Part shown: in pieces, positions 8,176-37,239 of the stretch
Numbering within the stretch: position 1 is the first letter of the stretch
Layout: each line of letters opens with the position of its first letter
From: an uncultured Verrucomicrobia subdivision 3 bacterium
GTDB taxonomy: Bacteria; Verrucomicrobiota; Verrucomicrobiia; Limisphaerales; UBA8199
Assembly: GCA_903912925.1 (NCBI GenBank)
Contig: CAIWJG010000811.1
Span: forward strand, 1 to 37,271
DNA length: 37,271 nt
Direction: 5' to 3'
Notes under the pieces: model-generated
Seen by the model: only the letters and a program-made list of their open reading frames with translations
Told to the model about the DNA's origin: nothing
Databases searched by the model: none
Made by a program: the position numbers and the translations under genes

Positions 8176-8180
8176 AGTCA

Positions 8181-8197
8181 ATTGGTCAATAACCAAT
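8181..8197. promoter_or_regulatory. Small inverted repeat before the M6 protease gene
   Basis: ATTGGT (8181-8186) and ACCAAT (8192-8197) form a perfect 6-bp inverted repeat with a 5-base loop, placed 5 bases upstream of the ATG at 8175. It could be an RNA hairpin affecting translation initiation or a weak protein site. I see no Shine-Dalgarno sequence in this 39-base spacer. At this size chance is a real alternative. Confidence 0.25.
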
Positions 8198-14200: not shown

Positions 14201-17200
14201 ACCGCGTTGGACAGGCCCAAAGTCGCGCCGCCGCTGGAATTGTACAGGCGCAGGTTGACGGTGGCGTCGCCGCCCGGAGTTGGGTTGTTAATGTTCGTAA
14301 CCACGACCGTCTGGACCGCCACGCCGGGCAGGAAGGTGACCCGGGTATGATTAGTCCGGTAGTGAACCATGTTGGTGGCCGAGCCATTGAGGGTCTGGAA
14401 TTCCGCCGTCACCAGCCCGGTGAGCCCGTTGGTCCGGGTGATGGTGATACTGGCATTGGTGCTTTCACTGCACGAGTAAGTTGCGGCGCTGAAACCCAAC
14501 ACCCCGGGGAGGGTATGCGGGTCCACAATGGTCATGGTGGCGGAGGCTTGCCCGAGCGCCACACCCAACGGGATTCGCTCGCCGCCCAGCAAGAAGTTGT
14601 CGTTGTCGGTCGGATTGGCCAGTTGGATGGCCAACTGCCGGTTGCCCGAGGCGTTGGTGTTGTCGATCAGGCTGATGAACACATCGTTATCCGGAACGTT
14701 TTCAATGAGGAAAGGGTTCACGGTTGAGCTGTAACCGTTGTTCTGCCCGAAAAGCCCGTCCCCCAGGTGCCAGGTGGGATAGGGCCAGGTGGTCGGCCAG
14801 GTGGGAGTGCCGTAGGTGTTGGCGTCAAAATTGAAATCCCGGCCCTCGATAGCGATGCCCGCCACGCCATTGTTCGTCGAGTAGGTCAGCGGCGTGACCG
14901 TGACGGAGGCGGGACCGAGGTGGCCGTTGACGCGGGTCATGTTGATGAAACTTTGCTCGTCGGTCTGGTTAGCGGAGTAATTCTGATAGACGAGCCCAAT
15001 GTTGCCGGGGCCGGGGGTCGCCCCGCCGATAAGCCGGCAGAAGTTCTGCTTGTTGCTGACCTCGTCGCGGGTGGTGCCGCCGCCGACCCGCGGGAAGCTG
15101 CCCGCAATGAGGAGGTTGCCATCGGGCTGCAGGCCGAGGGCGTAGATGTAGTTGCGCGCTTCCGCGCCCGGGTCCCAATAGTGGCTGATCACCCCGGCGA
15201 ATTGGTTATAGGCGGTGTCCATGAAGCTGGTATCCACCGTGCCGTCGATGAACAGCCGCGCGAGGCCCACGCGCCGCGTCTGATTGAACCGGGAGAAAAT
15301 GCCGGCCAGCAGGACCTTGCCGTCCGGCTGCAAGGCCAGGGTATAGACGGCATCGTTCGCGCCCGCGCCCGTGAGGAAACCGAGGTCCAGATTGCCGAAC
15401 GGGTCGAGCCGGGTCAGGCCGGGACGCGCGTAGTTGTTGAAGGATTGGAACGCGCCGCCGACCACCACGTTGCCATCCGGCTGCAAGGCCAGGGCATAGA
15501 CGGTGCCGTCAAAGCCGGTGCCCGGGGCGAAGGTGGTATCGAGCGACCCGTCGGCGTTGAGCCGGGCGATGTGGTTGAGCGAGACCCCGTTGACGTGGGT
15601 AAACTCGCCGCCGATGATGACCCGCCCATCCGGCTGCACGCAGAGGGCAGAGATAGTGCCGTCCGGGCCCTGCCCCGGGTTAAAGGTCGTATCCGTAGTG
15701 CCATCGGGCAGCAGCCGGGCAATGTAATGGCGGGTGAAGGTGTTGACACTGCCGAATTCGCCCGCGATCAGGATTGCGCCGCTGCCGGGGTCAATGGCGA
15801 GCGCCCAGACCGTGCCGTCGGCCCCCTGACTCTGGGCGCCGAAGGATGGGTCCAGGGTTCCGCTGGAGTTGACGCGGGCAATGCGGTTGCGCGAGATCCC
15901 GTTAAACGAAGTGAACGCGCCCCCGATCACCGCCTTGCCGACCGCATCAATCGCCAGGGTGCTGATGAAGGAGTTGGCCCCGTTTCCCGTGTTGAAAGAC
16001 TGGTCGAGCGAGCCGTCGGTGTTGGCGCGCGCCAGGCGGTAAATATTGGCCTGGTTGTTAACGACGCCGATACCGTTGTAGTCGGTGAAATCGCCGCCGA
16101 TGATGGCCTTGCCATCGCTTTGAATCCCGATGGTGTACACGGTGCCATTGGGACCGGGGTGCAGGTTATACGCGGGATGCGTATTGGCATTATTCTCCAG
16201 GTTATAGGTTAAGTCGGCCGCGCCGGCAGGCTGGTCGCTGAACATGATCGTCAGGTTGCACGTCTGCACGTAGCCCAACGACCGCTCCGAGCCCGCGTTG
16301 GGATAAGTCGGGCCCGGCAAGGACAACTGCACCAAGAGGTCCTCATTGAACTGAACCACCGCGTCGTCGTAAATGGGGATGTCAATGAACTTGGGCGTCA
16401 TATCTGAGCCTTTCCACTCCAGCGTGCCGCTCGTCGTCGCAAAATGGATATTGTCCGAATATATGGAGCGACTGCATTCGGTATTGGTGACCACGCCGGC
16501 GTAATCCGAGCCCGGCTGCAAAGGGATTTCCCAGTCGTTCTGGTACGGATTGTTCATGAACGTGTTGTTCTCTGACTGACACGGGTGGAGGAAGTCAATC
16601 CGGTAATCAACGGAGGTATCCTTGGGGGGGGAGTCAATGGACGAACGAAAGACGGCGACGCGCGCGACCCCGATGCCCTCGGTGCAGCGGAGGGTCGCCC
16701 GCTCGAAATTGAACACATTCGTGCCGGGTGAGCCACTGCCGAGGCCTGCCGGTCCGCTTTCAGGATTATTCTCGTAGGGGATCACCATCGCCTGCTGGCT
16801 CAGGATATTGAGCATCGCGTTAGTGGCGGTGGTCTTGGCGGTAGGCGGCGGGATGGCCGTGGATTCGAGCGGGTCGAGCGCCACCCGGGTGATGGAGGCG
16901 ATCAGCACGTGGTTGAGAATGGGGAATCCCTGGCTAGAGCTCGGGAGGACCGTCACCAGAATGTCGGCGCTCATTTGATAATCGTTGAAGACCAATTGGC
17001 CCCGGGCAGGCAAGTAATCCCGGAAGGGAGTGGCGGAGGCGACGATATTTGAGCCTGATTTCGGCGGGAGGCAGAAGGACGTGGTGACCACCGGCACCGG
17101 ACCATTGGTATCCGTAACCGACGAGTTATCGCAGACGAAGTCTGGGGGAGCATTGGTCCACGGGTAGCTGACCAAAGTGCCGCCCTGATTCGTGCCGGTG

Positions 17201-18232: not shown

Positions 18233-18335
18233 CCCGGCATCCAAGCGCACGCGATAGAACCGCTACGGCATCACGTTTCACGTTTCACGTTTCACCCCCC
18301 GGCATCCAAGCGCACGCGATAGAGCCGCTGCGGCA
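18233..18335. repeat. 38-bp direct duplication flanking a heptamer array
   Basis: Positions 18233-18270 and 18298-18335 are direct copies matching at 36 of 38 bases. Between them lies TCACGTTTCACG... (18271-18297), which on the minus strand is a run of GTGAAAC heptamers. The right copy is the last coding segment of the 1001-residue gene (residues RLYRVRLDAG). The left copy repeats the same sequence after the stop codon. The gene's TGA is the first triplet of the heptamer array. Confidence 0.9.
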
Positions 18336-21301: not shown

Positions 21302-23521
21302 TTAGGGGTTTATAGTGATGGTCAGCGATCGCGTAATGGTGCGCGAGTAGCCCCCAGGTATGATTCCCGTCAGGCTCACAGTGAAAGAATAAGTCCCCCC
21401 CGACGACGGTGTTCCGCTGATCACCCCGCTGGGACTGAGGCTCAAACCGGGCGGCAGGGAACCGCCTGCCAGTGACCACGTAAGCGACTGAGCGCCAGTA
21501 GCCTGCAATTGGGTGGCCGGGTAAGCGGTGCGCGCCGTGCCATTGGGCGGACGCGCGGTGGTGATCTGGAAAAGTATCTGGGCCTCGAGATTCGCGATGC
21601 TGGTGCCGCTCGGGTACACCACCGGGGCATTGGTGCCTCCATCGAAGGAACCCCAGATGAAGTTGGTCCGGGCGGTGGACTCGCTCAGGCCACTGAGTAT
21701 ATAGTTGGTGCCATAGACGTTTTGGAGCAGCGGCCCGACTTTGTTGAAGGTAATCACCATGTTGGGCTCGATATTGCCCGGCCCGGAGATGCCGGGGTTC
21801 TTATTGGCGTCGTTGAAGTTGCCGGGCGTTGTGGTGCGAGACGCGAGGAAGCCTAGCAGATCAGAGGCGGTGATGAGGAAATCCGGCTTGGTGACGACGC
21901 GCCGCATCCAGGCGGTGTACGGCTGGCTGTTGGAGATGAGCACTTGCGAGTAAATGTTGGTGATCGGCTGGAAGAAGCGGCCGACCAGCGAGTCGTAATT
22001 GGCGCGGACGAAGGTAAAATGATCTATGCCCTGGCGCAAATTGGTATTCGCCGTGAGGCACTCCACCGGGTAGTAATTGAACCAGTGATTGGTGGAGTAG
22101 TTGACGATGGTCTGGCTGTAGGACTGGATGTTGGTGGAGCCCGGCGGGCCGTTGGTCGGGGACGACACGACATTCGTGTAGGAATTAGTAAAGGTGGCCT
22201 GCAACCCCAGGATGGCAATGCTGCAAAGGCTGGGCGGCAGAATGAAGTACTCGCCGACCACCTCGTTGGTTGGATAGGTGACGCTCGTGGTGCTGACGTG
22301 GGGCGGAGTTCCCACCGGGTCGAAAGGCGAGTTGACCATGGTGGTCGTCTGCACGGTATAGAAGTCCCGACCGGTGAGGAGATTCACATCCGGCACCGGC
22401 ACCATTACCCAAACGCCATTCCTTAAGACGAAAGTCATCAAATTGCCAAAGGTGTGGCGGTACTGTGTCTGCACCGTCAGGGTGCGGGTGGTGGTGAACA
22501 CCTGATGCGGCGGGGTGCCGACCGGATCCATTGGGTAATTCGTGAAATAGGCCGTGATGTTGGTCACCCAGATGTTCGTGAAGATGTTGGCGGTGGCGAC
22601 AATATTCAAGTCGGGATACAAGCCCTGGAGCGCCGCGGCATTATTGGTCAGCGCCTGGGCGGCCAGCAGCGTCAGGTTCGAGGTGATGAGTAACTGCTGG
22701 CCCCCGCCGGTATTGGTAGCGAAGAACGTGCTGTCGCTCGACATAGACTCCCAGTTGACGTTGTTGGTGCCATAGATGTATCGCAGGCCGCCGATGTCAT
22801 CCCGCGTCATCGCGGTGGTATATTGTCCGTAGCCAAAAGTGCCCATGGACGTGATGGGGTAGGTATTAAACACGAGCGGATCCACCGTGAAGGGCGTGGT
22901 GGTGGCCGTTGGAGTACCGGTGCAATACTCGTCGATGACATAACTGTAAAGGGTTCCGTTCAGGTAGCTGCTCGGCTCCCAGGTCACCGGATCGAAATTG
23001 CGTTTGATGACCCTGTAGATCATCCACGGACAGCTCAGTCCCGGCTGCGTCTCCCGCGAGCGCAGGGTCCAAACGTAGCGGTCGGACTCCGCCAAACCCA
23101 GTTCCTCCACCACCAGGTTGAGCGCAATGGTCTTTAGATCATAAAGGTGGAGCGCCTGCGCGCGATAGTTCACCCGCATCGTCTCCAAAGGCACCTCCGA
23201 CAGGTTCGCGCTGTATTTGGAGAAATTGGTCAGGCGGTTCAAAATGGCGAAGGCCTGCTCGACGGCGGCGACGCCGTTCGAGCCGAAGTAATCCAAGAAA
23301 TTCTGGTTGAAGCCGTAATAAATGACCGGCGTATTCCAGCGATACTCTTCGCCGAGGTTCTTCGGGGTGCCAATGTCCCCGCCCACCATGTAGCCGATCT
23401 CGGGGACCTGCCAAGTATCCGGGTCGTTGGCACCGGGGCCCAAAAGGGCGTAGCCGGAAGCAAGCTGCCCACCGAAGGCCAGCAAGGCCAGGCAGCCAAA
23501 GATTTTCGCAAGTCGCAGCAT
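21302..23521 (-). CDS. Secreted 739-residue protein with Ig-like C-terminal domain
   Basis: The N-terminus, MLRLAKIFGCLALLAFGGQ, is a clear signal peptide ending near ASGYA. The first 280 residues (IGYMVGGDIG, IYYGFNQNFLDYFG, VEQAFAILNRL, RDDIGGLRYIYGTNN) recall the layout of matrixin-like secreted proteins. I find no HExxH, however, so no protease activity should be assumed. The middle is rich in Thr and Asn. It repeats DPVGTPPH twice, near residues 335 and 405, each followed by a Thr-rich strand. The last 85 residues (LPPGLSLSPSGVISGTPSSG) form a putative Ig domain of the He_PIG type. It lacks the RFYR-like tail of its neighbours. It starts 11 bases after the 649-residue gene with a good ribosome-binding site, and its stop lies 4 bases before the 1001-residue gene, so the three form a tight operon. 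Surface or extracellular location is likely; the role is unknown. Confidence 0.78.
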   Translation of the reverse strand: MLRLAKIFGCLALLAFGGQLASGYALLGPGANDPDTWQVPEIGYMVGGDIGTPKNLGEEYRWNTPVIYYGFNQNFLDYFGSNGVAAVEQAFAILNRLTNFSKYSANLSEVPLETMRVNYRAQALHLYDLKTIALNLVVEELGLAESDRYVWTLRSRETQPGLSCPWMIYRVIKRNFDPVTWEPSSYLNGTLYSYVIDEYCTGTPTATTTPFTVDPLVFNTYPITSMGTFGYGQYTTAMTRDDIGGLRYIYGTNNVNWESMSSDSTFFATNTGGGQQLLITSNLTLLAAQALTNNAAALQGLYPDLNIVATANIFTNIWVTNITAYFTNYPMDPVGTPPHQVFTTTRTLTVQTQYRHTFGNLMTFVLRNGVWVMVPVPDVNLLTGRDFYTVQTTTMVNSPFDPVGTPPHVSTTSVTYPTNEVVGEYFILPPSLCSIAILGLQATFTNSYTNVVSSPTNGPPGSTNIQSYSQTIVNYSTNHWFNYYPVECLTANTNLRQGIDHFTFVRANYDSLVGRFFQPITNIYSQVLISNSQPYTAWMRRVVTKPDFLITASDLLGFLASRTTTPGNFNDANKNPGISGPGNIEPNMVITFNKVGPLLQNVYGTNYILSGLSESTARTNFIWGSFDGGTNAPVVYPSGTSIANLEAQILFQITTARPPNGTARTAYPATQLQATGAQSLTWSLAGGSLPPGLSLSPSGVISGTPSSGGTYSFTVSLTGIIPGGYSRTITRSLTITINP

Positions 23522-23528
23522 AAACGGT

Positions 23529-23534
23529 CTTCCT
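23529..23534 (-). promoter_or_regulatory. Ribosome binding site overlapping the upstream stop codon
   Basis: AGGAAG on the minus strand lies 7 bases before the ATG at 23521, and its first two bases are part of the TAG stop of the 649-residue gene (TAGGAAG). This supports that start codon and suggests translational coupling. It is one of few clear Shine-Dalgarno sequences in the window. Confidence 0.65.
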
Positions 23535-25482
23535 ATCGCAATCGCAGAATGCGGTAATAGCCGGGGTTATTGAGGCCGATATAAACCGAATCGGTGTTGC
23601 CGACCGCAAAGCGCGGCGGGCCCCAATGAACCCACCCGGACAGGTTGGTCGAGCTTTGCACCTGGTAGGTCAGGCCCGGCTGGGGATTCCAGGTCAGAAA
23701 GTAGCCTTGGGCGGAATTGCTTAGGGCCGTCCGCAGCCAGGTGGCCGAATCAGTCGGATTAGCACCCGTCAGAAAAAGCTGCAGCAGCGACGGGCCGCCG
23801 GGGCTGACTGAGGCGCCTGCGCCCGGCCAGTTGTAGATCATGGTAAATCCGTTCCAGAACGCGTCGAAGGAACCGTAGTAACGGGTCATCCACTCCCACG
23901 GAATGCCGCCCCAACTCTGGCCGCTCCAGGTGGTCGCGCTGCTGGCGGGGGACAACGGTGAGCGCCGGCCGTCGGCTGTCACCACGCGCACCTGAAATGT
24001 GTGGGTGCTGCTGGGGGTGGCCGTCATGACCCAGACGTTGGTCGTGAGGGAGGCGGCGGCCAGGCTGGCGCCGTCCACATACACCTCATAATGATCCACC
24101 GGCAGCCCGGTTTGGGCCGCCCAGAAGACTTCGATCTGCGGCTGATAAACGTTGTTGCTGACTACGAAGGGCACGTAAGCCAAGGGAGCGTTCATGGGCG
24201 GGAGCGGCGGGGCGTTGGGGGTGTAGCGCTGGGCAAACAAATCGAAGCTATTGGGCCCGCCGATGTACCCGCTCCAAGCCACCAGGAACCGGCCCGCGCC
24301 ATCCGCGGCCACGCAGGGATGGATTTGCGCATTGATGACCGTCGGGTTGACGAGCATTTCACCCCCCAGCAGCGAACCATCGCCATGCAAGAACTGTCCA
24401 TACACCCCCTCGTTGGAGCCGTCCTGGCCCATGCTGGTCCAAACGACCAGGAAATCCGCGCCGCTGGCGCTGACCCGAGGGGCATACTGGTCACCGAAGG
24501 TGAACGTGTTGGCGCGGCGCTCCGTCCCCCCGACGCCGGCACTGGAAAATGGCCGGGCGAAGACATCCCAACTGTTGGTTCGGTTGGCCGAGTTGAACTG
24601 ACCCCAGGCCACCAGGAAGCCGCCGTCGTCGCTCGCGGCCACGCTGGGGTTGGCGCAGAGGTTAGTCCCGGTGTTGACGAGGAACTCACCGGTTACGGGC
24701 GCGCCGCTGGCACTGTAGAGCCGGCCGTAGATATCAACGCTGGGCGATCCAGTAGCGTCGGTAACCCGTTCCTGCTCGGAGACCCAGACCACCACGAACC
24801 CGCCGCCGGACAAGGGGGCTACGGCGGGCGTGCGCTGGTTGAAGGCCGTGAAGGCGTTGACGAGGAACTCGCCGCCGACTTTTTGTCCGCCGGGCGAGAG
24901 CAGTTGCGCATAAACGTCCTGCATACTGTTGGCGCTAAACTGGTTGTAACTCCCCCAGGCGACCACCAGGTTGCCGTTGGCCAGAGTGGCGGCGGCGGGA
25001 TCCACCTGCGAACTGGAGGTGAAGGTGTTAACGAGCACGTCATTACCAGTCCACGTGCCGGCGGCAGAAAGGAACCGGGCGTAGATGCGCTGGAAGCCCT
25101 GGCGCCCGCCCTGCCAGACAAAGGCCGCGCCACCACCATTGAGCAAGGAGACTTGCGGGCGTTCCTGATCGGCGGCACCGACGAAGTTCACCCGGAAGGG
25201 GGAGAGGACGCCTGAGAAGTTGGCATCCAACTGCAAGGCGCTAATTCCCAAGCCGTCGCCATCGGTGATGCTGTCCTCCCAAACCAAGTAGCCGCCAGTG
25301 GCATTCAGGCCGAGGTGGGGATGAACCTGATCCGTGGGCAACGAACCGGCGATGGCGTATTCCACCCCATTGGTGACATAGGAGTTGGTTTGGCCAAAGA
25401 GGACCGCGGGGGCGGCAACGGCCAAGCACCCGCAGATCAACGCGTTACGGGCGAAGAATGACAAACACATACATTCAGGCAT
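23533..25482 (-). CDS. Secreted seven-repeat beta-propeller-like protein with FnIII domain
   Basis: The protein has 649 residues. The signal peptide core (ALICGCLAVAAPAVLFGQ) is followed by seven repeats of about 55-65 residues over roughly residues 40-400. Each ends with a strand such as GGFVVVWVSE, GGFLVAWGQF or ADFLVVWTSM, followed by D(I/V)YG(R/Q)L and a GGEFLVN turn. Seven copies fit one seven-bladed propeller. A fibronectin type III-like domain follows (about 410-510: IEVFWAAQTGLPVDHYEVYV). The tail (YQVQSSTNLSGW, then GYYRILRLR) is the same C-terminal module as in the larger neighbours. Met5 could also be the start. The gene lies 64 bases after the secretin gene on the same strand, with no terminator seen between them, so it may be read from the same transcript. 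Binding or scaffold functions are plausible; no catalytic motif is visible. Confidence 0.78.
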   Translation of the reverse strand: MPECMCLSFFARNALICGCLAVAAPAVLFGQTNSYVTNGVEYAIAGSLPTDQVHPHLGLNATGGYLVWEDSITDGDGLGISALQLDANFSGVLSPFRVNFVGAADQERPQVSLLNGGGAAFVWQGGRQGFQRIYARFLSAAGTWTGNDVLVNTFTSSSQVDPAAATLANGNLVVAWGSYNQFSANSMQDVYAQLLSPGGQKVGGEFLVNAFTAFNQRTPAVAPLSGGGFVVVWVSEQERVTDATGSPSVDIYGRLYSASGAPVTGEFLVNTGTNLCANPSVAASDDGGFLVAWGQFNSANRTNSWDVFARPFSSAGVGGTERRANTFTFGDQYAPRVSASGADFLVVWTSMGQDGSNEGVYGQFLHGDGSLLGGEMLVNPTVINAQIHPCVAADGAGRFLVAWSGYIGGPNSFDLFAQRYTPNAPPLPPMNAPLAYVPFVVSNNVYQPQIEVFWAAQTGLPVDHYEVYVDGASLAAASLTTNVWVMTATPSSTHTFQVRVVTADGRRSPLSPASSATTWSGQSWGGIPWEWMTRYYGSFDAFWNGFTMIYNWPGAGASVSPGGPSLLQLFLTGANPTDSATWLRTALSNSAQGYFLTWNPQPGLTYQVQSSTNLSGWVHWGPPRFAVGNTDSVYIGLNNPGYYRILRLR

Positions 25483-25546: not shown

Positions 25547-28390
25547 TCAATTCTTTTCCCGCCCGGCTGCGGCGGCGGTTTGCGTCGGGAAACCACCCTG
25601 CGCAAAGGGCATTTCGTCGTCCGTATGCAACCGGTTACCCGAGGGGTCGATGAGCGTAGGGGTGACAAAAATGAGCAGGTTATTCTTGCTGGTCTGCTTG
25701 GATTCACTCCGGAAGAACCGGCCCACGAGCGGGAGGTCGCCGAGCATCGGGACCTGGTCTTTGATGGTGGTGACGGTTTCGGCGAGCATCCCGCCGAGGA
25801 CGACGGTCTGGCCGTCCCAAACATTGACCGCGGAAACGACCTGGCGCACCCGGAACAGCGGGAGGACCACGGGAACCATAACCAAGCCGCCCGGAAATGC
25901 TCCTGAGGTGGACAACGCCGAGGAGTCCACGGAATTGGGATTGTCGTAACCGACGAACTCCGTCAAGGTCGGGATCACGGTCATGTTGATGGTGAAGCCA
26001 TCCGAGAGCACGCAAGGAATGACGTCCAGCGTGGGCCCCAACTCCATCTGCTCGGGCATGGGATAGACAAAGGTAGCGGTTGGAGCTTGAACGGAGGTGC
26101 CACTGCCGACCGACGCGCCGGTGGCGCCGGTGTTCTGGCTGAAATTATAGGCGGTGATGATGGTCTTGACCTGGGTAGCCTTCATCTGCGCCTGCCGGCC
26201 ACTTTGGGTGGTGACCTCGGGCTGAGCCAGAAGTTCAGCCCCTTGCCGCTGCTGCAAGGCCTTAATCACCAGGCGGAATTGCGGATCCGTCAGGATGCCG
26301 GTGAGAGTGAAAAGCGTGGTGGAGGGATTGCGCAAGCCAGAGGTTAAGATTTGGTCCGTGCTGCTCGGCGCGGTGGCCGTGCCGGCGGCAACATTGCCGG
26401 GAAAGACTGTAGAGGGAGGATTCTTACCAGACAATGAAGGGGCCGAGCCGCCCTGCCCCCCAATCGTCCCATTGTTCATCAACACATTGCCCAGGTACCA
26501 GTCAAAGCCCAGCGCTTTGTTATCATCCTGGGAAACCTCGACGATCTTGGACTTGATATTGACCTGGGGCGGAACAACGTTGAGGATTTGAATGGCCGCC
26601 TCAATGATATCCAGGTCCTGAATGGTGGCTCGGACCAGGAGCACCCCTTGACGATCGTTAAAGAAGACGGCCTTGCCGGGATTCTTTATCGGATCAAGGT
26701 CAACCCCCAAGGCAACGAAGTAGTTGACGGCGGCCTGCGAGACCTGGGTCTCGTTATCCACCTGGGTAATGTGTTTCAAACCGCCGCCGCTGCTGCCGCC
26801 GGTGGCACCGCCTGCGCCGCCTGCGCCGCCTGCGCCGCCCATACCGCCACCCATACCGCCGCCCATGCCGCCGCCCATGCCGCCGCCCATGCCGCCGCCC
26901 ATCCCCATACCCCCCCCAGCGACACTCACGCGGGCAACCATTGCACCTACCCCGCCGCCCATACCGCCGCCCATACCGCCGCCCTGGCCGCCGCCTTGGC
27001 CGCCACCGCCCATACCACCGCCGCCACCGCCCATACCGCCGCCGCCGCCACCCATACCGCCGCCGCCACCGCCCATACCGCCGCCGCCACCGCCACTGCT
27101 GCTATTACCCACGTTATAGGAGCCTCCGAAACTCATCGCCCCTACGTTTTGCAGGCCCTGATAGAAGGTGTTGGGATCAACCTTAAAGGTGCGAATGTAG
27201 AGGGGGGTCGCCTCGCGCGCCTTCAATGAGAACACCACGGCGTAATCCTCGACCGAATACTTAATCGGTTTATCGGCTACTTTCACGATCGCATCCAACA
27301 CGTCCGCCAAGCGGATGTCATTGAGCGCCGGGTTGATCTTGATGGAGATGGAGCTCATATCCACCTGCTCCACGGGAGCGGCCGGAATCGGCTGGCCGTC
27401 CGGACCAAGCGACGGCAGGCCGGGAATGGTGGGGCCAGCGCTGTCGATGTTCTGGTTGACGAGAAAATTGATGCCGCGCTTTTCCGGGTCGCGCTTTTTG
27501 GCTTCGTCGTTTAGACTGATGATGACCTCGCCCAAGGGCAATCCGTCATACTTGATGGTGTCGAGGTGGATGCGATCCAGCTTGGCGATGATACTCTGGC
27601 GGCCCTGGCCGGTGAATACGAGGTTGGTGCGGGCGTAGGGATTCGGCACGGGCAAAAGGTCGCGGGTGATCGGGGTGGCCCAAGCCTGCTCGACGGCGCG
27701 GACGTCTTGCCGCATGGTCACCTCGTGCAATTTTGATGCCCGCACGAATTTGGCCTCCGAAACGAGGTTAAGATAATAGAGGGCAGCTTCATTGTGCGGG
27801 TCCTGCTTGAGGGCCGCCTTGAGCTTGGCGTCGGCTTCGTCCAACTTGTCCATTTCGAACAGCAGCTTTCCGTCGTGCACCAGCGTGCTGGCCTTGACTT
27901 TCTCTTCCATGACCGCCGGCACCTGGCTCCGGACATCTTCGCTGGGGATCCGGCCGCGCTGCTCGGCGAGCAGTTTTTCGTTGCCGGTTTTGAATTCAAT
28001 GGCCGCCGCATTGGTGGGATCAACGCGCAGCCCGTCATCGATTTGCGTCCGGGCCTCTTTATAGTCGCCCCGGCGCTGCGCGGCGCGGGCCAACTCGAGC
28101 CGCACCGCGCCCAGGCCGGCTACGGTCTGGTCGCGCTCGGCGTCCACCCCGGACCCGATCTTCTGCACCAGCTCCCAGGAGTCATCGTAGAGTTTGGCCG
28201 CCGAGGGGAGCGCGTGGCGCTCTTGCGCAGCGCGGGCGTCCGCCAGTTTCTGCCGCAGGGCAATGCGGTTGGCCTGGCGATAAACGGCCTCGTTAACGGC
28301 GGTCTCTTGCGGTGGGGTCTGGGCCGGGGCCGCCGAAGCGGCGGCGAGCAAAGCGATCAGGGCGAGCGAGAGGGTGGCTGCTTTCATCAT
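25547..28390 (-). CDS. Amuc_1098-family secretin, type IV pilus or type II secretion-like
   Basis: This 947-residue outer-membrane secretin would form the multimeric channel of a pilus-like or type II secretion-like machine. After a signal peptide (MMKAATLSLALIALLAAA), residues about 30-215 form a TPR-like helical region, including LDEADAKLKAALKQDPHNEAALYYL. Secretin N-domains follow at about 285-425. Residues about 432-536 are almost pure Gly and Met. Another N-domain (VRATIQDLDIIEAAIQIL) and the secretin core (about 697-920) come next. The core carries the family signature: VLGGMLAET, DQVPMLGDLPLVGRFF and NNLLIFVTPTLIDP. I use ATG 28390; ATG 28387 is as good, and a longer TTG start would overlap the upstream stop. 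It is the last of four clustered genes, 35 bases after the Amuc_1099-like gene. The TPR plus secretin layout and gene order match the Akkermansia Amuc_1098 locus as I recall it. Confidence 0.93.
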   Translation of the reverse strand: MMKAATLSLALIALLAAASAAPAQTPPQETAVNEAVYRQANRIALRQKLADARAAQERHALPSAAKLYDDSWELVQKIGSGVDAERDQTVAGLGAVRLELARAAQRRGDYKEARTQIDDGLRVDPTNAAAIEFKTGNEKLLAEQRGRIPSEDVRSQVPAVMEEKVKASTLVHDGKLLFEMDKLDEADAKLKAALKQDPHNEAALYYLNLVSEAKFVRASKLHEVTMRQDVRAVEQAWATPITRDLLPVPNPYARTNLVFTGQGRQSIIAKLDRIHLDTIKYDGLPLGEVIISLNDEAKKRDPEKRGINFLVNQNIDSAGPTIPGLPSLGPDGQPIPAAPVEQVDMSSISIKINPALNDIRLADVLDAIVKVADKPIKYSVEDYAVVFSLKAREATPLYIRTFKVDPNTFYQGLQNVGAMSFGGSYNVGNSSSGGGGGGMGGGGGGMGGGGGGMGGGGGGMGGGGQGGGQGGGMGGGMGGGVGAMVARVSVAGGGMGMGGGMGGGMGGGMGGGMGGGMGGAGGAGGAGGATGGSSGGGLKHITQVDNETQVSQAAVNYFVALGVDLDPIKNPGKAVFFNDRQGVLLVRATIQDLDIIEAAIQILNVVPPQVNIKSKIVEVSQDDNKALGFDWYLGNVLMNNGTIGGQGGSAPSLSGKNPPSTVFPGNVAAGTATAPSSTDQILTSGLRNPSTTLFTLTGILTDPQFRLVIKALQQRQGAELLAQPEVTTQSGRQAQMKATQVKTIITAYNFSQNTGATGASVGSGTSVQAPTATFVYPMPEQMELGPTLDVIPCVLSDGFTINMTVIPTLTEFVGYDNPNSVDSSALSTSGAFPGGLVMVPVVLPLFRVRQVVSAVNVWDGQTVVLGGMLAETVTTIKDQVPMLGDLPLVGRFFRSESKQTSKNNLLIFVTPTLIDPSGNRLHTDDEMPFAQGGFPTQTAAAAGREKN
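26781..27094 (-). repeat. Low-complexity Gly/Met tract within the secretin gene
   Basis: About 104 codons encode GGGGGGM units and then GGGM units. Short interruptions read QGGGQGGG and AMVARVSVAG, and the tract ends in GGAGGAGGA. On the plus strand the DNA is a run of CCGCCGCCCAT-type units. Such codon-level repetition is prone to length change by slippage. The tract lies between two secretin N-domains, so length changes would alter a flexible periplasmic linker, not the barrel. Confidence 0.9.
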
Positions 28391-28425
28391 GGTTAGGATT
28401 GCGTTTGGGAAAAGTCTGGCGCAGT

Positions 28426-29232
28426 TCAAGGGGCGGCACCGGCACGGTACTTAATGGTCCATTTCTTTTGGTTCGATTTAGCGGACAATACAACTTCGTT
28501 CTCGGTGATGGCAACGATATTGTAATCCTCGCCGTTGAAAGCGAGCGACGCGCCGACGCGGCGGTTGGTCCAGGTCTTGGCCTCCGGCGCGTACTTCATA
28601 TCGACCACGTAGCCATCAACGCGCCGGAAGGGCTGGTCTTTGGCCACCGTCGCGCGCTGCGCCGTGTCGTTCAATTCCAGCACGACCGTGGCGTTGGTCG
28701 GGTCGTCGGGCGCCGTTTTGACCTCACGCAGGGTGAAGGTGTCGTTCTTGGTATTGAGCGAACAGTACTTCTGCGTCTTGCTCCGGTCGCGTGGATTCAC
28801 GGCGGCTTCCTTCTCGATGCCGATAACGTAGCGCGGCCCGGCCTCCAGGAGGGTGACCGAATCGAGCGTGAGCTTGAGGTGCAAGGGGACCATCTTGGTG
28901 ATCGTCACCGCGTTAGGACCAATATTAGTGACGTCCACTTTGATGAGATGACCATCAGCCGCCTTCTGCCAAGGCATCGGATTGAAGAGTTTGTTGGGGG
29001 CGGAGAGATCGATCGTGGCGGGCGCGGCCGCCCGCTTGAGCACGGTGTCCGGCAGGGTGAGGTCCAAATTGGTCAGCGGTTTGACTTTGAGGTGAATGAG
29101 GCGATTACGCATGTCCTCCAGCGTCTGCTTTTCACTGGTGATCTTGTAAGGCAGAAAGCCGACCGCCACGGCCAAGCCCAGGAGCACGACGCCGAGCAGG
29201 ACCTTTTCGTAGTTTTTCTTGAGAAAATCCAT
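28426..29232 (-). CDS. Amuc_1099-family pilus-like system protein
   Basis: This 268-residue protein has a short cytoplasmic start (MDFLKKNYEK), one membrane anchor (about residues 11-29, VLLGVVLLGLAVAVGFLPY) and a periplasmic part. The latter has two beta-rich segments: about 85-175, with LKLTLDSVTLLEAGPRYVIGI, and about 200-265, with VGASLAFNGEDYNIVAITENEVVLS. The second looks like the small beta domain that inner-membrane partners such as PilP or GspC use to contact the secretin. The assignment rests on position as well as sequence: it lies between an Amuc_1100-like gene (2 bases apart) and the secretin, as in Akkermansia. It probably links the inner-membrane platform to the secretin; that role is inferred. 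Confidence 0.8.
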   Translation of the reverse strand: MDFLKKNYEKVLLGVVLLGLAVAVGFLPYKITSEKQTLEDMRNRLIHLKVKPLTNLDLTLPDTVLKRAAAPATIDLSAPNKLFNPMPWQKAADGHLIKVDVTNIGPNAVTITKMVPLHLKLTLDSVTLLEAGPRYVIGIEKEAAVNPRDRSKTQKYCSLNTKNDTFTLREVKTAPDDPTNATVVLELNDTAQRATVAKDQPFRRVDGYVVDMKYAPEAKTWTNRRVGASLAFNGEDYNIVAITENEVVLSAKSNQKKWTIKYRAGAAP

Positions 29233-29234
29233 CT

Positions 29235-30323
29235 TTACTTGGAAGCGGCCGGTTTCACTGCAATGAGCATCAGGGTGACTTTCAACTGTTTCTCGTCCAG
29301 ACTGATCGGCAGGCCGCCGCGGTTGGCCGACGCCGACGCTGCGGGCGCCACTGGCGGGACATACGCCGGGGCAACAGGCGAGGGCCCGCCGCGATTACCG
29401 TAGCGCTCGGAAAATGCCGACCCCGGCGCCCCCCGGCCCCGCATACCGTAGCGCTCGGCCAATCTCGCCTCCACGGAGGGGGCCATGGCCGGAGCAGGCG
29501 CGAGCGGGGCATAGGGAGTAGCGGCGGTGGACGCAAATGCTTCGGCGCCCGCGGCCGCCGCCGGCGCCGACTCGACGTTGATGGTCTTGACCAGCAAACC
29601 GCAGGGAGAGGCGGAAAAGCCGGCCAGCACGGAAGCCAGCTCAGAACTGAAGCAGCGGAAGGTCACTTCATAAGGCGACAGCACGGCCAATTCATTCGTC
29701 ACGGTCTTCTCCGTTAGATAATCGGTTTGCGGCCCCTTAAAATCGTCATCGGAGACCCGTTCGCGCCGGATATTGTCCAGCGAGTTAACCTTGGCCTGGA
29801 CCAGCACATTGCAGATGCCCTTGACCTCAGCCAGTTGCACAGAGAGGGGGGCGAGGCTGCCGGGGGCGTAGGCGAGGCTCTTGCTTTGGGCGGCGAACGA
29901 AAAACAATACGGCTGGCCAGTCGAATCCTTGGGCGGCAGAGTTACGCTCGCTTTGGTGGCGTCGCGCTGCATCTGGTCCAGGGTTCGGCTCAGGGCGGAG
30001 CTGAATTCCTGGGGGGTCAACTTGCCGGATTCCGGGACGGGGATGGGGGGGCAAAGTTGAAAATACTGGCGAGCTTTCCCGATATAGGCACGCATCTCCT
30101 TCTGCTGCTCCTTGGCGGCTTGAATGTTGTTGACCTGGTCGGACCCCGGATGCGGGTTCTGATCATTCAAGCGCTTAAGCTCGACGTATTGTTCGTCAAG
30201 CTTGCCGAGGAATTCGTTATTGAGTTGCCACTTGGAATAGAGGTACCAGCCGGCCAGGCCCATCAGCGCCAACGCCACCAGGCTCCCGATCAGAAAGTAC
30301 AAATTGCGCTTTATCCAGTCCAT
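29235..30323 (-). CDS. Amuc_1100-family pilus-like protein
   Basis: This 362-residue protein starts MDWIKRNLYFLIGSLVALAL, a single N-terminal membrane anchor followed by a coiled-coil-like helix (LDEQYVELKRLND...). The periplasmic part has two alpha/beta segments: about 105-245, with QEFSSALSRTLDQMQRDATK and LVQAKVNSLDNIRRERV, and about 245-280, with YEVTFRCFSSELASVLAGF. A flexible Ala/Pro/Gly linker with two ERYG(M/N)RG-like motifs precedes a last strand, LKVTLMLIAVKP. The same layout is known for Akkermansia Amuc_1100 (317 residues), a membrane-associated protein noted for effects on host signalling. Five Cys residues are scattered through the periplasmic part. The ATG at 30323 lies 1 base past the PilM-like stop; a longer upstream frame would overlap that gene and spoil the anchor. 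A PilO-like platform role is inferred, and no host interaction should be assumed. Confidence 0.85.
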   Translation of the reverse strand: MDWIKRNLYFLIGSLVALALMGLAGWYLYSKWQLNNEFLGKLDEQYVELKRLNDQNPHPGSDQVNNIQAAKEQQKEMRAYIGKARQYFQLCPPIPVPESGKLTPQEFSSALSRTLDQMQRDATKASVTLPPKDSTGQPYCFSFAAQSKSLAYAPGSLAPLSVQLAEVKGICNVLVQAKVNSLDNIRRERVSDDDFKGPQTDYLTEKTVTNELAVLSPYEVTFRCFSSELASVLAGFSASPCGLLVKTINVESAPAAAAGAEAFASTAATPYAPLAPAPAMAPSVEARLAERYGMRGRGAPGSAFSERYGNRGGPSPVAPAYVPPVAPAASASANRGGLPISLDEKQLKVTLMLIAVKPAASK

Positions 30324-30324
30324 A

Positions 30325-32289
30325 CTACAATTTGAGCGGGTGTTTGAGCCGGGCGACGATGCTGAAGGTGAACGTTCCGCTCTGATCATCGTTCACCACC
30401 TCGCTGGTAGTGTGCGTCTCCTGCGGGTCCGGGTCAAAGAAGGGACTGTTTTGCAGTTCTTGCAGCACGGAATAGGCGATGCCCTTGTCCGCATCCGCCT
30501 GACCGGAAGTGTTCTTCAAGCTGACGGCGCGGAAGGTCATGGTGAGCGTGGCAATTTCTTTCGCGTCGCCCTTGGGCTTGCGGGAGCCCGTCGCGGCGGC
30601 GGGGGCGGCGGCATCCCCCTCGGCGGCAGGCGGTTGTTCGGCGGCGGGCGGTCCGGGAGGTGGCCCACCACGCCCCGGCATTCCTCCCCGCCCTTCGAGA
30701 CCATAGCGCGCGCCATAACGTTCGCGGAATCTCTGCGCCGCCATAGGGTCCATGGACGGCATGGCTGGCGCGCCTGAAGCAGCGCCCGCGTCCATCCCCG
30801 GGGTTCCATCACCTTCCGCCCGCGGAGCGGCCGTGAGCAATTGTTCGATCCATACCCCGGCATCCGTGCGCAGCTTCCCCTTGGTGGTCTGTTCCACCTG
30901 GATCAGCAACCGGCGCAGTTCGCCCAGGACGTCCACCCAGTAGAATCGGTCGCCCATCCAAGTGACTACTTGAGCGACTTCGTCCTTGGTCTTCTTCAAA
31001 CTGCTGTGGGCGGTCTTGAACTGGACTTCCTTCGCCTTTTCCGGCTCGACATCCTTTATCACCGTCGCCAACACGTCGGTCTTGACCACGGCCAGCTTGT
31101 CAAACAGGAAGGCCATCGCCGCCACGACCGCCACGAGGCTGAACACGGTGGCGATGAAATAGGGCTTCTTCTGGTTGAAGCGCTGCCAGCGGAGGGTGGT
31201 CGCCGGCATCAAATTCAACTCGACCGGGCAATGCGCCAGGTTGCGCAGCCCCAGGCCGACCACCTCGCCGAGCGAATGGGCCACCCGCGCCAGCTCTTCC
31301 AGGTTGATCGCGGGGTCAAGCTGAACATTTCGCAGCGGGTTGAAGTACTCGACCGGCACGTTCAGCTTCTCGGCAAAGAACTGCGCCGTGTAGGGCATCA
31401 CCGACGCGCCGCCGGACAGGAACAACCGCTGCGGCGCCGAGCCGCCCTGCTGTCCGCGGTAGAACTGCATGGTCTGGTTAACCTGGATGTGCAGCCGGGT
31501 CATGAACTGCCGGGCGATCTTCGAAATAGCCGCCTGATGCTGGTTCTCTGGTTCTTCGTAGGCGCCGCCCAAGCTGACAAATCCTTCTTCGATCTTGAGC
31601 TTCTCCGCCGCGTCGAACTTCAGCTTGGATTCATTGGCGAAGTCCTGCGTGATCGAGTTGGCACCGAGGTTGATGCTGCGGGAGAAAACCTTGCCCTTCT
31701 CGAAGAACAGCAAGTTGCTGGTCTTGGCGCCGATGTCCAGCAACATCGTGCAATCTTCCAGATCGCCGTAGTTGTAGCGGAACGCGTTGCACAGGGCGGC
31801 CGGGGAGACATCGGTCAGTTGCAGGCGCAGCCCGCTGCTCTCCGTCACGCGGAACAAACCTTCAACAATGTCGGCTTTGATGGCGACCAGCAGCACTTCC
31901 AGTTCGCCCCCGGCCGTCGAGCCCAGAATCTGGTAGCTCCACACGACTTCCTCCAGCGGGAACGGCACGTTCTGCTGCGCCTCATACTGGATGATCTGCG
32001 TCACTTTGCCCGCATCCACCGGCGGGAGCTTGACGAATTTGGAGAAGACGTGGAAACCCGGCGCGCACACATTAACATTCCTGGCCTTAACACCCTTTTC
32101 CGCCAGGAGCTGTTGGAGCGCTTTGAGAACCGTCGCTTCGCGCGTGGCTTCCTGCGCGCCTTCGGCGCCGAGCGACTTGAGCGCGTACTGCTTCAAACGC
32201 AAGCCGCCAGCTTCATTGACCTCGAACTCCGCCAGCTTGAGGCTGCCGGCTCCGAAATCAATCGCGAGAAATGACTTTGTGTTCAGCAT
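30325..32289 (-). CDS. Amuc_1101-family PilM-like ATPase fused to a PilN-like part
   Basis: The protein has 654 residues. Residues 1 to about 350 form an actin/FtsA-like PilM domain: FLAIDFGAGSLKLAEF at the N-terminal phosphate loop, LLDIGAKTSNLLFF near 185, and LFLSGGASVMPYTAQFF near 285. A membrane helix follows (about 375-396, FIATVFSLVAVVAAMAFLFD). Beyond it is a helical periplasmic segment, a Pro/Gly-rich linker with RFRERYGARYGLEGRGG near 516-532, and a final alpha/beta segment (IATLTMTFRAVSL) as in PilN or GspL. Canonical PilM is a soluble protein of about 350 residues that binds the tail of separate PilN; here both seem to be in one chain. The gene leads the pilus-like cluster, with the next start 1 base after its stop, and a candidate promoter lies upstream. 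It would sit at the cytoplasmic side of the inner membrane. Confidence 0.9.
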   Translation of the reverse strand: MLNTKSFLAIDFGAGSLKLAEFEVNEAGGLRLKQYALKSLGAEGAQEATREATVLKALQQLLAEKGVKARNVNVCAPGFHVFSKFVKLPPVDAGKVTQIIQYEAQQNVPFPLEEVVWSYQILGSTAGGELEVLLVAIKADIVEGLFRVTESSGLRLQLTDVSPAALCNAFRYNYGDLEDCTMLLDIGAKTSNLLFFEKGKVFSRSINLGANSITQDFANESKLKFDAAEKLKIEEGFVSLGGAYEEPENQHQAAISKIARQFMTRLHIQVNQTMQFYRGQQGGSAPQRLFLSGGASVMPYTAQFFAEKLNVPVEYFNPLRNVQLDPAINLEELARVAHSLGEVVGLGLRNLAHCPVELNLMPATTLRWQRFNQKKPYFIATVFSLVAVVAAMAFLFDKLAVVKTDVLATVIKDVEPEKAKEVQFKTAHSSLKKTKDEVAQVVTWMGDRFYWVDVLGELRRLLIQVEQTTKGKLRTDAGVWIEQLLTAAPRAEGDGTPGMDAGAASGAPAMPSMDPMAAQRFRERYGARYGLEGRGGMPGRGGPPPGPPAAEQPPAAEGDAAAPAAATGSRKPKGDAKEIATLTMTFRAVSLKNTSGQADADKGIAYSVLQELQNSPFFDPDPQETHTTSEVVNDDQSGTFTFSIVARLKHPLKL

Positions 32290-32691: not shown

Positions 32692-33657
<966 letters not shown>

Positions 33658-33709
33658 AAATGCCGTTAAATCAGACTTGGGGATGCGCGTCTCAATGAGC
33701 CCTGCCGCC

Positions 33710-35107
33710 CTATTTGGCGCCGGTGCCGGCGAGGACAGCCGGCAGGGTGCGCCAGAGAATCCAGATGTCCAGCCAAAGCGACCAAGTGTCAATGTATTCC
33801 AGGTCCAGCCGCACCCAGTCCTTGAAATCGCAGACATTGTTGCGCCCGCTGACTTGCCACAGGCAGGTCAACCCCGGTTTGACGCTCAGCCGCCGCCGGT
33901 GCGCCAGGTCGTTGAACCGCTTGACTTCGTCCACCGGCAGCGGTCGCGGCCCCACCAGGCTCATCTCGCCGCGCAGGACATTGAAGAGCTGCGGCAGCTC
34001 GTCCAGGCTGTACTTGCGCAGGAACTTGCCGACGCGCGTAACGCGCGGGTCATTGGTCACTTTGAAGACCGGGCCGGTCATTTCGTTCATCGCCGCCAGC
34101 TCGTGTTTGAGCTGTTCGGCGTTGGTCACCATGGTGCGGAATTTATAAAGGGTGAAGGGCCGGCCATTGATGCCCGACCGCTGTTGCCGGAACAGCACCG
34201 GCCCGGGCGAGGTGAGCTTGACGAGCAGGGCAAGCAGCCCAAGTAACAGCCAGCCAAACAAGAGCGCCAGGAACGACCCGAGCGAATCTATCAACTGCTT
34301 GGCCACTCTCGGCCACGAGGAGTCCGGAGTCGAGCGGAAGACCAGCACCGGCCAGCCGTAAAAATCGTCAAAGCTGGTGCGCGAGATTTGAGCTTTGAAG
34401 AAATCCGCCACCAGCCAGGCCTCGACTCCCTCCAGTTCGCACGCCCGAATGGCGGCTTCGACTTGCTCAAAATATGCGTGCTTCGCACTGAGGATAACGC
34501 CATTGACAGAGTGCTCGTGCAGCATCTCCACCAGCCGCGGGACGGTCGTCTGGTTCAGATCCACCCGCGCCAGTATTTCAATTTCCGGCGCCGATTTGGA
34601 CTTCAGTTCCGCCTCCATCCGCACCGTTTCTTCGCTCGCACCGACCAGGATCACCCGCCGCCGGTATTGCTCCTGCGCCAACTTGCTGCTCACAAACCAC
34701 CAGAACACTTCTTCCTTCGTAAATACGAGCCCGAAGCTGCTCACCCCAAACCAGATGACCACCCAACGCGCAACGGGTGGAATCTGGAACAGGAACATCG
34801 TCAGAACCAGCCCAATACTGATGAAGAAGCAGCCTTTGAACAGAATCCAGGCGGTCGTGCTCCGGGGACACAACATCGGCCGCGCGTAAAACCCCTGGCC
34901 CTCCAGGATCAGCGGCGCAGCAGGGATCAAGACCAAGTACAGCGACATGTAAGTTTCGAATGGCTGAGTCCACTCCCTTAGACCAAAGAGATTAATGATG
35001 GTCGGGTTGGCCCGCAGTTCGTAAGCTAGCCAGAAGCTGAACGCGAAAAGGCAGGCATCCATCAGTTGATGGATTTGCATCCGAATCTGGCGGTCGCGGC
35101 GCAACAT
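33710..35107 (-). CDS. Polyprenyl glycosylphosphotransferase for exopolysaccharide
   Basis: This 465-residue membrane protein should transfer a sugar phosphate from a nucleotide sugar to undecaprenyl phosphate, the first step of repeat-unit assembly. The N-terminal part has four membrane helices (roughly 14-32, 50-68, 85-105 and 112-130). A cytoplasmic nucleotide-binding-like domain follows ([27 protein letters not shown]). A fifth hydrophobic segment near 275-297 leads into the bacterial sugar transferase domain: [53 protein letters not shown] and [13 protein letters not shown]. Architecture and length are those of the WbaP/WcaJ/EpsB-type enzymes. Which sugar it uses cannot be read from the sequence. 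The start at ATG 35107 has no clear Shine-Dalgarno sequence. The 353-base spacer upstream may separate its transcript from the exosortase pair. Confidence 0.95.
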
Positions 35108-35460: not shown

Positions 35461-36204
35461 TCATGGCCGAGCGGTGGAGGTCTGTCCGGCCGGGCGTGGG
35501 ACCAACTGGATGTCCGGCGCGGAGGCGACGATGAACTTCTTCAGGCGATCGCAGGCCGCGTCCTCCTGGCCGGGCGCGCAGACGGTGAAATAGCTGATCA
35601 TGGCCCACCGTTGCAACACGCCCGTGCGGACAAGGTCCCGAGCCATCCACCACATGCGCTGCCAATGTTGCGCAGTGAACTCGTCGCCGTCGGCCACGAA
35701 CCAGGCCAGATAGACCCCTCGGGCAGTAAGCTTCCGGCCCTGCTCCGTCACCTCGCGAGTGGCAATGAACTTCATGACGGGCAAGTCATAAGGGTAAGGC
35801 CGGTCGATGCGCACGGTCGTTTCGTGCGAAGCACTTCGATCAATGCTCCAACCCTGCCCTTCCAGGCAAAACTCGGTCTTGTGCAGGCTGGTGCGATCGC
35901 TTCCCATCAGCACCACGTTCACCGACGCCTGAAAGCCATCGGGCGCCCGGTAAAGCCGTTGACCGAAGCTGGTGTCCGGTGGCAGCCAATCCAGTGCTGT
36001 CTTGTCCACCTCCACCGCCTGAGAAGCGTAGTCGAGCGCGCGCTCCGGCAGCTCGACCTGGAGCCGGATGCTGCCCGGGATGGGGCGGGTCTTGACCGCC
36101 GGCTGGCCCAACTTCTGGTGAGTGCGCAAATTCGTCAGCAGGCCCGCAGTGCCGCCCATTAAGCCCAGCGCCACGATCAGGATTATCCATGTTTGCTTGT
36201 TCAT
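35461..36204 (-). CDS. Exosortase-associated EpsI-like protein
   Basis: The protein has 247 residues with one N-terminal membrane segment (about 6-25, WIILIVALGLMGGTAGLL) and a periplasmic domain of the EpsI/DUF3485 type. The family pattern is visible: LPPDTSFGQRLYR near 74-86, VNVVLMGSDRTSLHKTEFCL near 95-114 with His108 and Cys113, and EGQGWSI. The second half (YLAWFVADGDEFTAQHWQRM) is also usual for the family. EpsI proteins accompany exosortases, either as a separate gene or fused to them, and are needed for the associated exopolysaccharide in the systems where they were tested; the biochemical act is not settled. It begins 18 bases after the exosortase stop, so the two are co-transcribed and probably act together at the inner membrane. 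Confidence 0.9.
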   Translation of the reverse strand: MNKQTWIILIVALGLMGGTAGLLTNLRTHQKLGQPAVKTRPIPGSIRLQVELPERALDYASQAVEVDKTALDWLPPDTSFGQRLYRAPDGFQASVNVVLMGSDRTSLHKTEFCLEGQGWSIDRSASHETTVRIDRPYPYDLPVMKFIATREVTEQGRKLTARGVYLAWFVADGDEFTAQHWQRMWWMARDLVRTGVLQRWAMISYFTVCAPGQEDAACDRLKKFIVASAPDIQLVPRPAGQTSTARP

Positions 36205-36222: not shown

Positions 36223-37239
36223 TCAGACGACTTGCGCGGGCGCGGGGTCGGCGACGGGCTTAGATGGCTGTTCCCCAAGCAGACGCCCCAGCAGGATTAA
36301 CCCGGCGAACGCGGCAACATAGGGCAGCAGACTGATAATGCCAAACGGTCCCCCTTCATGCACGTAGTTGCCCGCTTCCTGTCCCCAGACCTCCGCCGCG
36401 ATAATAATAGTCATCATCCGCACGATGTTGCCAAAGACCGCCAGGGGCACGGCCGACGCAATCAGCACCCCACGTTTCCACCAGGGCTGGAAGCAAAGCA
36501 TGGCGTAGATGATGCCCACCGCGACGGTAGCGAACAGGCTGCGAATCCCGCTGCACGCCGCCGCCACGTCATACTGATAATGGCCGGCCGGATTCATCAA
36601 TGCCGTGCCCACCCGGAGAATATCAATCTGCAGAATGTAGCCCGAAATCAACTCCACCGCGCGGCAGACCAGCAGCCGCAGGGGAAAGGTAATGGACACC
36701 GCCGACCACCCCAGCGGCACACAGAAGGCGAATAAGCAGAACGGGAAGAAGCTTTCGTACAGCCATTGGGGTCCCCACGCCAGCCCCATCAAACCGTAGA
36801 TGCCGACAAACAGCGCGACGATCGAAATGCGCGGTTGCTGGACCATGTAGCCCAGCAAATGCAGCCCCAGGGCCAGCGCCACCACCAGCAACCCCGGGGT
36901 CCAGGTTCGGAGCGGCAGGGCCAGCAATCGCTTGCGTTTCAACCAGAATAGCCCCAAGACCAAGAAGGGAATCAGTTTCCCGTGGCTGTCGTCCCTGGCA
37001 GCCGCGTCCCCAGTGGAGCCGTAGGCGGCGCTCATCCAGGACAGTAGCGACGGCGTGGGAATATAGCCCACCGTAGAATTACCCAGGAAATGGAACAGCG
37101 ACAGCCAGGCGACCAGCAGAACACAAAACAGGCCTTTGTTCGGCAGTCGTTGCCAACAGTCGGCAAGCTGAATGCGGAAGTCTTCGAGAATCCCGTTGGC
37201 CGGTTGCTTTTCCATTCGCACAGGGTCTGGCACTTGCAT
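36223..37239 (-). CDS. Exosortase/archaeosortase-family transpeptidase
   Basis: This 338-residue polytopic inner-membrane protein has about eight hydrophobic segments. The three catalytic residues of the family are in place: Cys229 in VAAACSGIRSL, Arg274 in FGNIVRMM and His294 in YVHEGGPFG. The early loop DDSHGKLIPF also matches. Exosortases cut and probably re-attach proteins bearing a C-terminal PEP-CTERM-like tripartite tail, and they are linked to exopolysaccharide loci; here EpsI and sugar-transfer genes follow. No protein in the window has a PEP-CTERM-like tail, so substrates must be encoded elsewhere or differ in form. I use ATG 37239; ATG 37215 (MEKQPANG) is an equal alternative. Only 32 bases lie upstream in the window, so its promoter, or a preceding operon member, is out of view. 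I do not assign an Xrt subtype. Confidence 0.93.
   Translation of the reverse strand: MQVPDPVRMEKQPANGILEDFRIQLADCWQRLPNKGLFCVLLVAWLSLFHFLGNSTVGYIPTPSLLSWMSAAYGSTGDAAARDDSHGKLIPFLVLGLFWLKRKRLLALPLRTWTPGLLVVALALGLHLLGYMVQQPRISIVALFVGIYGLMGLAWGPQWLYESFFPFCLFAFCVPLGWSAVSITFPLRLLVCRAVELISGYILQIDILRVGTALMNPAGHYQYDVAAACSGIRSLFATVAVGIIYAMLCFQPWWKRGVLIASAVPLAVFGNIVRMMTIIIAAEVWGQEAGNYVHEGGPFGIISLLPYVAAFAGLILLGRLLGEQPSKPVADPAPAQVV

Follow-up and report, generated by a model that had tools for sequence, protein, structure and literature searches.

The stretch of DNA analysed here (hereafter, the window) is a complete contig of 37271 bases, belonging to a draft genome of 8.8 Mb in 997 contigs; its host falls in the Limisphaerales (Verrucomicrobia subdivision 3), which agrees with the environmental lineage supposed in an earlier note on this DNA, and it probably represents a soil or peat lineage. 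On the minus strand, from 32289 to 25547, four open reading frames follow each other with intergenic gaps of 1, 2 and −4 bases. The first (30325–32289) encodes a PilM-like protein of 654 aa, homologous to Amuc_1101 of Akkermansia muciniphila, in which residues 1–350 form a PilM domain, followed by a hydrophobic stretch and by a C-terminal half that belongs to no known family. The second (29235–30323) encodes an Amuc_1100 homologue of 362 aa with a PilO/GspM-type fold, recognised by NCBIfam, hhalign and fold comparison, and the third (28426–29232) an Amuc_1099 homologue of 268 aa, placed by profile-profile comparison and lacking the calcium-loop insertion seen in Akkermansia-type proteins. The fourth (25547–28429) is a secretin, homologue of Amuc_1098/PilQ, with N-terminal TPR, a Gly-rich insert and a C-terminal secretin domain; it measures 960 aa if counted from a TTG, and an ATG near 28390 is its likely start. 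Upstream, on the same strand, lie the genes of a NAD-dependent sugar epimerase/dehydratase (32692–33837), an exopolysaccharide polyprenyl glycosylphosphotransferase (33710–35107), an EpsI-like exosortase-associated protein (35461–36204) and an exosortase (36223–37239). The flanks described in the earlier note were therefore found as such, namely exopolysaccharide and exosortase genes on one side and genes of large secreted proteins on the other. Promoter and terminator scans gave a signal no better than that of shuffled sequence.

The genes downstream of the secretin, also on the minus strand, are here named gE to gA. gE (23533–25482), 64 bases behind the secretin, encodes a secreted protein of 649 aa with repeats of the form G-D-Q...A-x-L...V-W that resemble those of beta-propellers, fn3- and TSP3-like domains and a C-terminal domain with a conserved end; it has a single match in its own genome, and its relatives show weak matches to the fn3, TSP3 and GH43 families. 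The gE profile also weakly matched the sister-order Amuc_1099 proteins; this was traced to a TSP3-like motif present in both and does not reflect a common origin of the proteins as a whole. After a gap of 11 bases, gD (21302–23521) encodes a secreted protein of 739 aa, of unassigned function, in which only a C-terminal Ig-like (He_PIG) domain was recognised. Its model has a pLDDT of 85.7; Foldseek and VIA matches of the full model mainly cover the Ig domain, and no usable fold match was obtained for residues 1–640. By eye, this N-terminal part resembles matrixin metallopeptidases that have lost their zinc ligands, on account of a helix motif and one of the 'GLTRDDVGGLRY' type; when solved structures were searched with a profile nothing was found, and the resemblance is kept only as a lead. 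Four bases further, gC (18292–21297) encodes a secreted protein of 1001 aa without known family, for which no match in the PDB sequences and only stray weak Pfam matches were found; its N-x-G rich repeats suggest a beta-solenoid. The translations begin with stretches that look like signal peptides. Two giant secreted proteins come next: gB (8215–18081; 3288 aa), with Calx-beta, delta-60 and DUF11 repeats and a P-domain, and gA (1768–8196; 2142 aa), with an M6 metalloprotease domain, DUF11 repeats and P-domains; neither is constant, gB being a less regular and gA not a fixed member of the locus. The string closes with coaE (1134–1739), a dephospho-CoA kinase gene named from sequence and place, which is a downstream neighbour common to Akkermansia. 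Behind it, at the contig end (minus strand, 400–1030), the translation shows by eye an antitoxin-like short ORF (start 1028) followed by a PIN-domain-like ORF.

The earlier note had claimed that the four adjacent genes reproduce the layout of the Akkermansia locus. The order on the minus strand is as it had described, and family, profile and fold matches bear it out. In the NCBIfam check that it had proposed, the PilM-like protein matched Amuc_1101_fam with 485 bits (E 3e-145; curated cut-off 650), the 362-residue protein Amuc_1100_fam with 65 bits (E 8e-18; curated cut-off 180) and the secretin Amuc_1098_fam with 332 bits (E 9e-99; curated cut-off 750), all three missing the cut-offs, and no NCBIfam model matched the 1099-like protein of the window. 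Solved structures of PilM (E 5e-48) and of GspD and PilQ (E 2e-27) were matched by the PilM-like protein and the secretin, respectively; in the C-terminal half of the former, where the PilN part would lie, Pfam recognised no family. As for the 1099-like protein, Amuc_1099_fam matched weakly 13 of the 27 members of its alignment (best E 8e-5), the window's own protein not being among them, and in the window's genome the matches of this model fall on a short stretch of other large proteins. On the other hand, the profile of the 27 members aligned with that of 14 Amuc_1099-family proteins from sister orders over 252 columns (E 1.5e-19), and it is by this profile-profile comparison that the protein is identified. 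PilP was matched neither by the window's 1099 homologue (Pfam, NCBIfam) nor by the sister-order 1099 family (Pfam). In the alignments the calcium-loop motif is absent from the 1099 homologues of the Limisphaerales; a D-x-D-x-D ... E calcium-loop-like motif is invariant in the 14 sister-order Amuc_1099 proteins, including that of locus L190 (10863–11876).

For the 362-residue protein, Amuc_1100_fam matched all 24 scanned members of its alignment and the GspM model, weakly, 9 of the 24. The profile of this alignment matched Amuc_1100 itself by hhalign (E 3e-9); used alone against the PDB sequences it did not recover Amuc_1100, which NCBIfam, hhalign and the fold did. An AlphaFold2 model computed with 61 input sequences (mean pLDDT 81.6) was compared by Foldseek with the PDB: the ten best matches were all Amuc_1100 chains (E 1e-8 to 1e-7), followed by PilO of Pseudomonas. 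Superposition by VIA-align gave Z 17.0 with Amuc_1100 (6kny_A; rmsd 2.7, 168 aligned residues) and Z 16 to 17 over the Amuc_1100 chains; PilO, the PilO core and PulM reached Z 9.9, 8.2 and 5.9, respectively. As modelled, the 362-residue protein folds like Amuc_1100; the structural comparison asked for in the earlier note was thus passed, and the outcome it had named against itself, an unlike fold, did not occur. Chance similarity of the four genes was also considered and is ruled out by the family matches, the 1099 profile match and the Foldseek result. The four genes are confirmed as homologues of Amuc_1101, Amuc_1100, Amuc_1099 and Amuc_1098.

The conservation of the locus within the order was evaluated on two overlapping sets, the first made of 36 regions of the order plus the window (37 loci) and the second of the 80 best among 289 gE loci. 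Genes of the first set were called as longest ORFs, and because of this simple procedure single genes lying under longer antisense ORFs appear as gaps in the map of the 37 loci. The usual string of the order, in these loci, often starts with exosortase, EpsI, sugar transferase and epimerase genes (an epimerase homologue is present at 20 of the 37), continues with PilM-1100-1099-secretin and gE-gD-gC, often with gB, and leads to coaE. In at least 13 of the 37 loci a 5'-3' exonuclease of housekeeping type, named by eye, stands near or between the secretin and gE, hence unrelated genes can break up the string. Among the best 80 of the 289 gE loci, the four scaffold genes lie on the same strand in 59/59 loci having at least 8.5 kb upstream, the secretin is present in 76/76 having at least 500 bases upstream, and gD and gC in 58/58 having at least 6.5 kb downstream; coaE is found in 18 of the 80, many of which stop short of it. 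Moreover, in 43 of the 48 order genomes with gE, gE and the 1100 homologue are 4.7 to 7.5 kb apart on one contig, and in the other 5 they are on separate contigs. gE-gD-gC is a fixed part of the locus across the order. The 'different genomic setting' of the earlier note, if meant as a relocation, is not supported: coaE is also the Akkermansia neighbour, sugar-transferase or epimerase homologues lie upstream in 7 of 20 loci of sister orders as well, and gE-gD-gC is constant in the order. Several records entitled Akkermansia muciniphila, Klebsiella pneumoniae or Proteobacteria bacterium (L138, L142, L146, L152, L145 and L147) carry a locus of the Limisphaerales type, and their titles look wrong; in one genome (G014, contigs C2 and C37) two copies of the locus were seen, possibly by contamination of the draft.

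The distribution of the single components was followed in a single set of 286 genomes from the class, used for every profile and comprising 52 members of the order and 234 others. The 1100 profile was matched in 51/52 order genomes and in 117/234 of the others. gE was found in 48/52 order genomes (3 of the 51 carrying an 1100 homologue had no gE match), and full-length in none of the 234 others, where 9 genomes gave partial matches at E 1e-20, eight of them limited to the C-terminal part and one (G158) to part of the repeats. About 12 of the 48 order matches stop near profile position 430–505, and these gE proteins therefore have no C-terminal part. By contrast, the profile of Amuc_1102, the pilin-like fifth gene, was matched in 145 of the 234 other genomes and in 0 of the 52 of the order, nor was there a match in the window's own genome; a separate search gave 0 of 30 relatives, and the 80 and 36 order loci gave no match at E 10. 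The sensitivity of this profile was controlled by leave-one-out, in which each of 15 members was recovered by the profile of the other 14 at E below 1e-24. Judging from these searches, the order lacks Amuc_1102. Outside the order, 89 of the 234 genomes matched neither gE in full nor Amuc_1102, so that lacking Amuc_1102 is not by itself tied to having gE. Of the 286 genomes, 145 gave a match to Amuc_1099_fam at or above the cut-off; in another sample, made of 58 relatives, the window's 1099 homologue was detected in 51. A second 1100 homologue, of the order's type, was seen in a genome of another order (G319, contig C14), where contamination of the draft is possible.

The arrangement outside the order was examined in 20 regions around Amuc_1099-family matches from other orders of the class. 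One of them, L190, is Akkermansia muciniphila itself, as its 1100 protein matches PDB 6lad/6kny and its 1102 protein 7dsz; it has the gene order 1102-1101-1100-1099-1098-coaE, with gE, gD and gC absent, and most of the other regions are arranged likewise. L196, L203 and L208 showed no recognisable secretin, and L207 no recognisable member of the four. rho neighbours the locus in 9 of the 20 regions, and was not found in the regions examined from Limisphaerales. Tandem pairs of secretin genes were observed in L193, L194, L197, L199, L200 and L204.

The four genes probably encode a trans-envelope scaffold of the type IV pilus/type II secretion kind. In it the PilM-like protein, extended by a membrane and a periplasmic portion, would form the cytoplasmic ring, the Amuc_1100 homologue would act as PilO, the Amuc_1099 homologue would stand in for PilP as periplasmic linker, and the secretin would provide the outer-membrane exit. 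No T2SSE match for a motor ATPase was found in the window; the 17 matches over the cut-off in its genome (9 GspE/PilB-like and 8 PilT-like, by score and length) are all on other contigs, and the ATPases of Akkermansia likewise sit away from its locus. Most likely, an assembly ATPase whose gene lies away from the locus would power export by way of the secretin, with gE, gD and gC either going through it or being seated on it at the cell surface, where their propeller-like, fn3 and Ig-type domains might hold a polymer substrate for uptake. This last step would be comparable to the need of MUL genes for mucin accumulation in Akkermansia, where they are required for the accumulation of mucin products in internal compartments (PMC12418764), and selfish laminarin uptake has been reported for aquatic Pedosphaeraceae (PMC13174399). 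The domain content of gE is no proof that it binds polymers. Since the pilin-like gene is missing and three different secreted proteins are in the operon, we suggest a general scaffold with exchangeable outer parts; that a PilM-PilO-PilP-PilQ-like scaffold had here its outward-facing module exchanged, with gE-gD-gC coupled to it as synteny and short gaps indicate, seems to us reasonably probable. Only as a tentative proposal, which we hold to be less likely, the scaffold could be a class-wide envelope machine in which the Limisphaerales swapped Amuc_1102 for a gE-gD-gC surface device for polymer capture, from which the polymers would pass through the secretin or alongside it, leading to selfish polysaccharide uptake.

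Other explanations of the same gene string have to be weighed. The four genes might encode a type II-like channel devoted to secretion, of which gE, gD and gC, with the giants gB and gA, would be the cargo, released or anchored via a shared C-terminal domain. In fact, the translations of gE, gC, gB and gA have similar short endings closing with an aromatic-arginine motif, the stretch ~500–642 of the gE profile also matches segments of other large proteins from several genomes, and the GspM matches within the 1100 alignment point in the same direction; this ending, however, is missing in gD and in several gE homologues, whose matches stop near position 435, and further secretins in the genome could act as general secretion channels, so that we regard this possibility as doubtful, though worth consideration. 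A little less credit is due to an ordinary type IV pilus alignment complex using pilins encoded elsewhere, with gE, gD and gC as conserved neighbours of unrelated surface role, which we judge unlikely. The abundant GspE/PilB- and PilT-type ATPases, off-locus both here and in Akkermansia, would suit such a complex, as would the housekeeping-looking genes (coaE, the exonuclease) of the same neighbourhood, owing to which neighbourhood alone is no proof of partnership; but gE-gD-gC is kept after the secretin in all testable loci, over many families, and gE is confined to the order without Amuc_1102.

Quite different is the case of an independent type IV pilus operon whose likeness to Akkermansia would be superficial, as the missed NCBIfam equivalog cut-offs might lead one to think. 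The Amuc_1100-specific fold, with family matches in every scanned member, the Amuc_1099 profile match, and the identical gene order with coaE as neighbour leave it a negligible probability, and we consider it already refuted.

The preferred reading, a conserved scaffold with an exchanged outer module, has to be seen against what was known. Amuc_1100 has been studied as a protein acting on the host. The main inference of the earlier note, that the complex is older than life in the gut, is right, yet known in outline, having already appeared in print (PMC4960237, PMC13174399): PilQ homologues were reported in environmental Verrucomicrobia in 2016 (PMC4960237), and the MUL2 locus in 2026 in aquatic Akkermansiaceae and other Verrucomicrobiales (PMC13174399), being often conserved in the Verrucomicrobiales, less in Chthoniobacterales and undetected in Methylacidiphilales. 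The Akkermansia gene cluster is known as Amuc_1098-1102 (PMC5332112), Amuc_1100 has been named PilO (PMC11573778), and coaE is named as a neighbour in a figure legend (PMC13174399). The main text of the latter paper has no mention of Limisphaerales, and 'Pedosphaer' occurs in it once, for laminarin; no description of gE-gD-gC was found in the titles and abstract openings of the open-access literature on the order or on Amuc_1100/Amuc_1102. What is new is an entire order in which the scaffold is retained, Amuc_1102 is lacking and gE-gD-gC stands at the same place instead. A scaffold of soil and freshwater bacteria without the pilin-like partner separates the conserved core (1098-1101) from an exchangeable part, the swap of partner is a natural experiment on the role of the complex in the cell, and gE, gD and gC offer three protein families testable for polymer capture.

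Compared with type II secretion (GspD, GspM, GspL), the window has a secretin that matches GspD structures and an 1100 family touched weakly by GspM in 9 of 24 members, but no GspE at the locus, and the 362-residue fold is best matched by Amuc_1100 and then by PilO. With PilMNOPQ of the type IVa pilus it shares the PilM domain, the PilO-type fold, the secretin and the gene order, although no PilN is separately encoded or recognised and no motor ATPase is at the locus. In comparison with Amuc_1098-1102/MUL2 of Akkermansia muciniphila, it is without the Amuc_1102 gene, which in MUL2 lies upstream of 1101, its 1099 homologue is without the calcium-loop motif invariant in the 14 sister-order proteins, its sequences are below the NCBIfam equivalog cut-offs of 1098, 1099, 1100 and 1101, and gE, gD and gC (in the window also gB and gA) are inserted between secretin and coaE. 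Nevertheless, the homologues of 1101, 1100, 1099 and 1098 stand in the same order in both, and coaE lies downstream in both, here after the gE-to-gA block.
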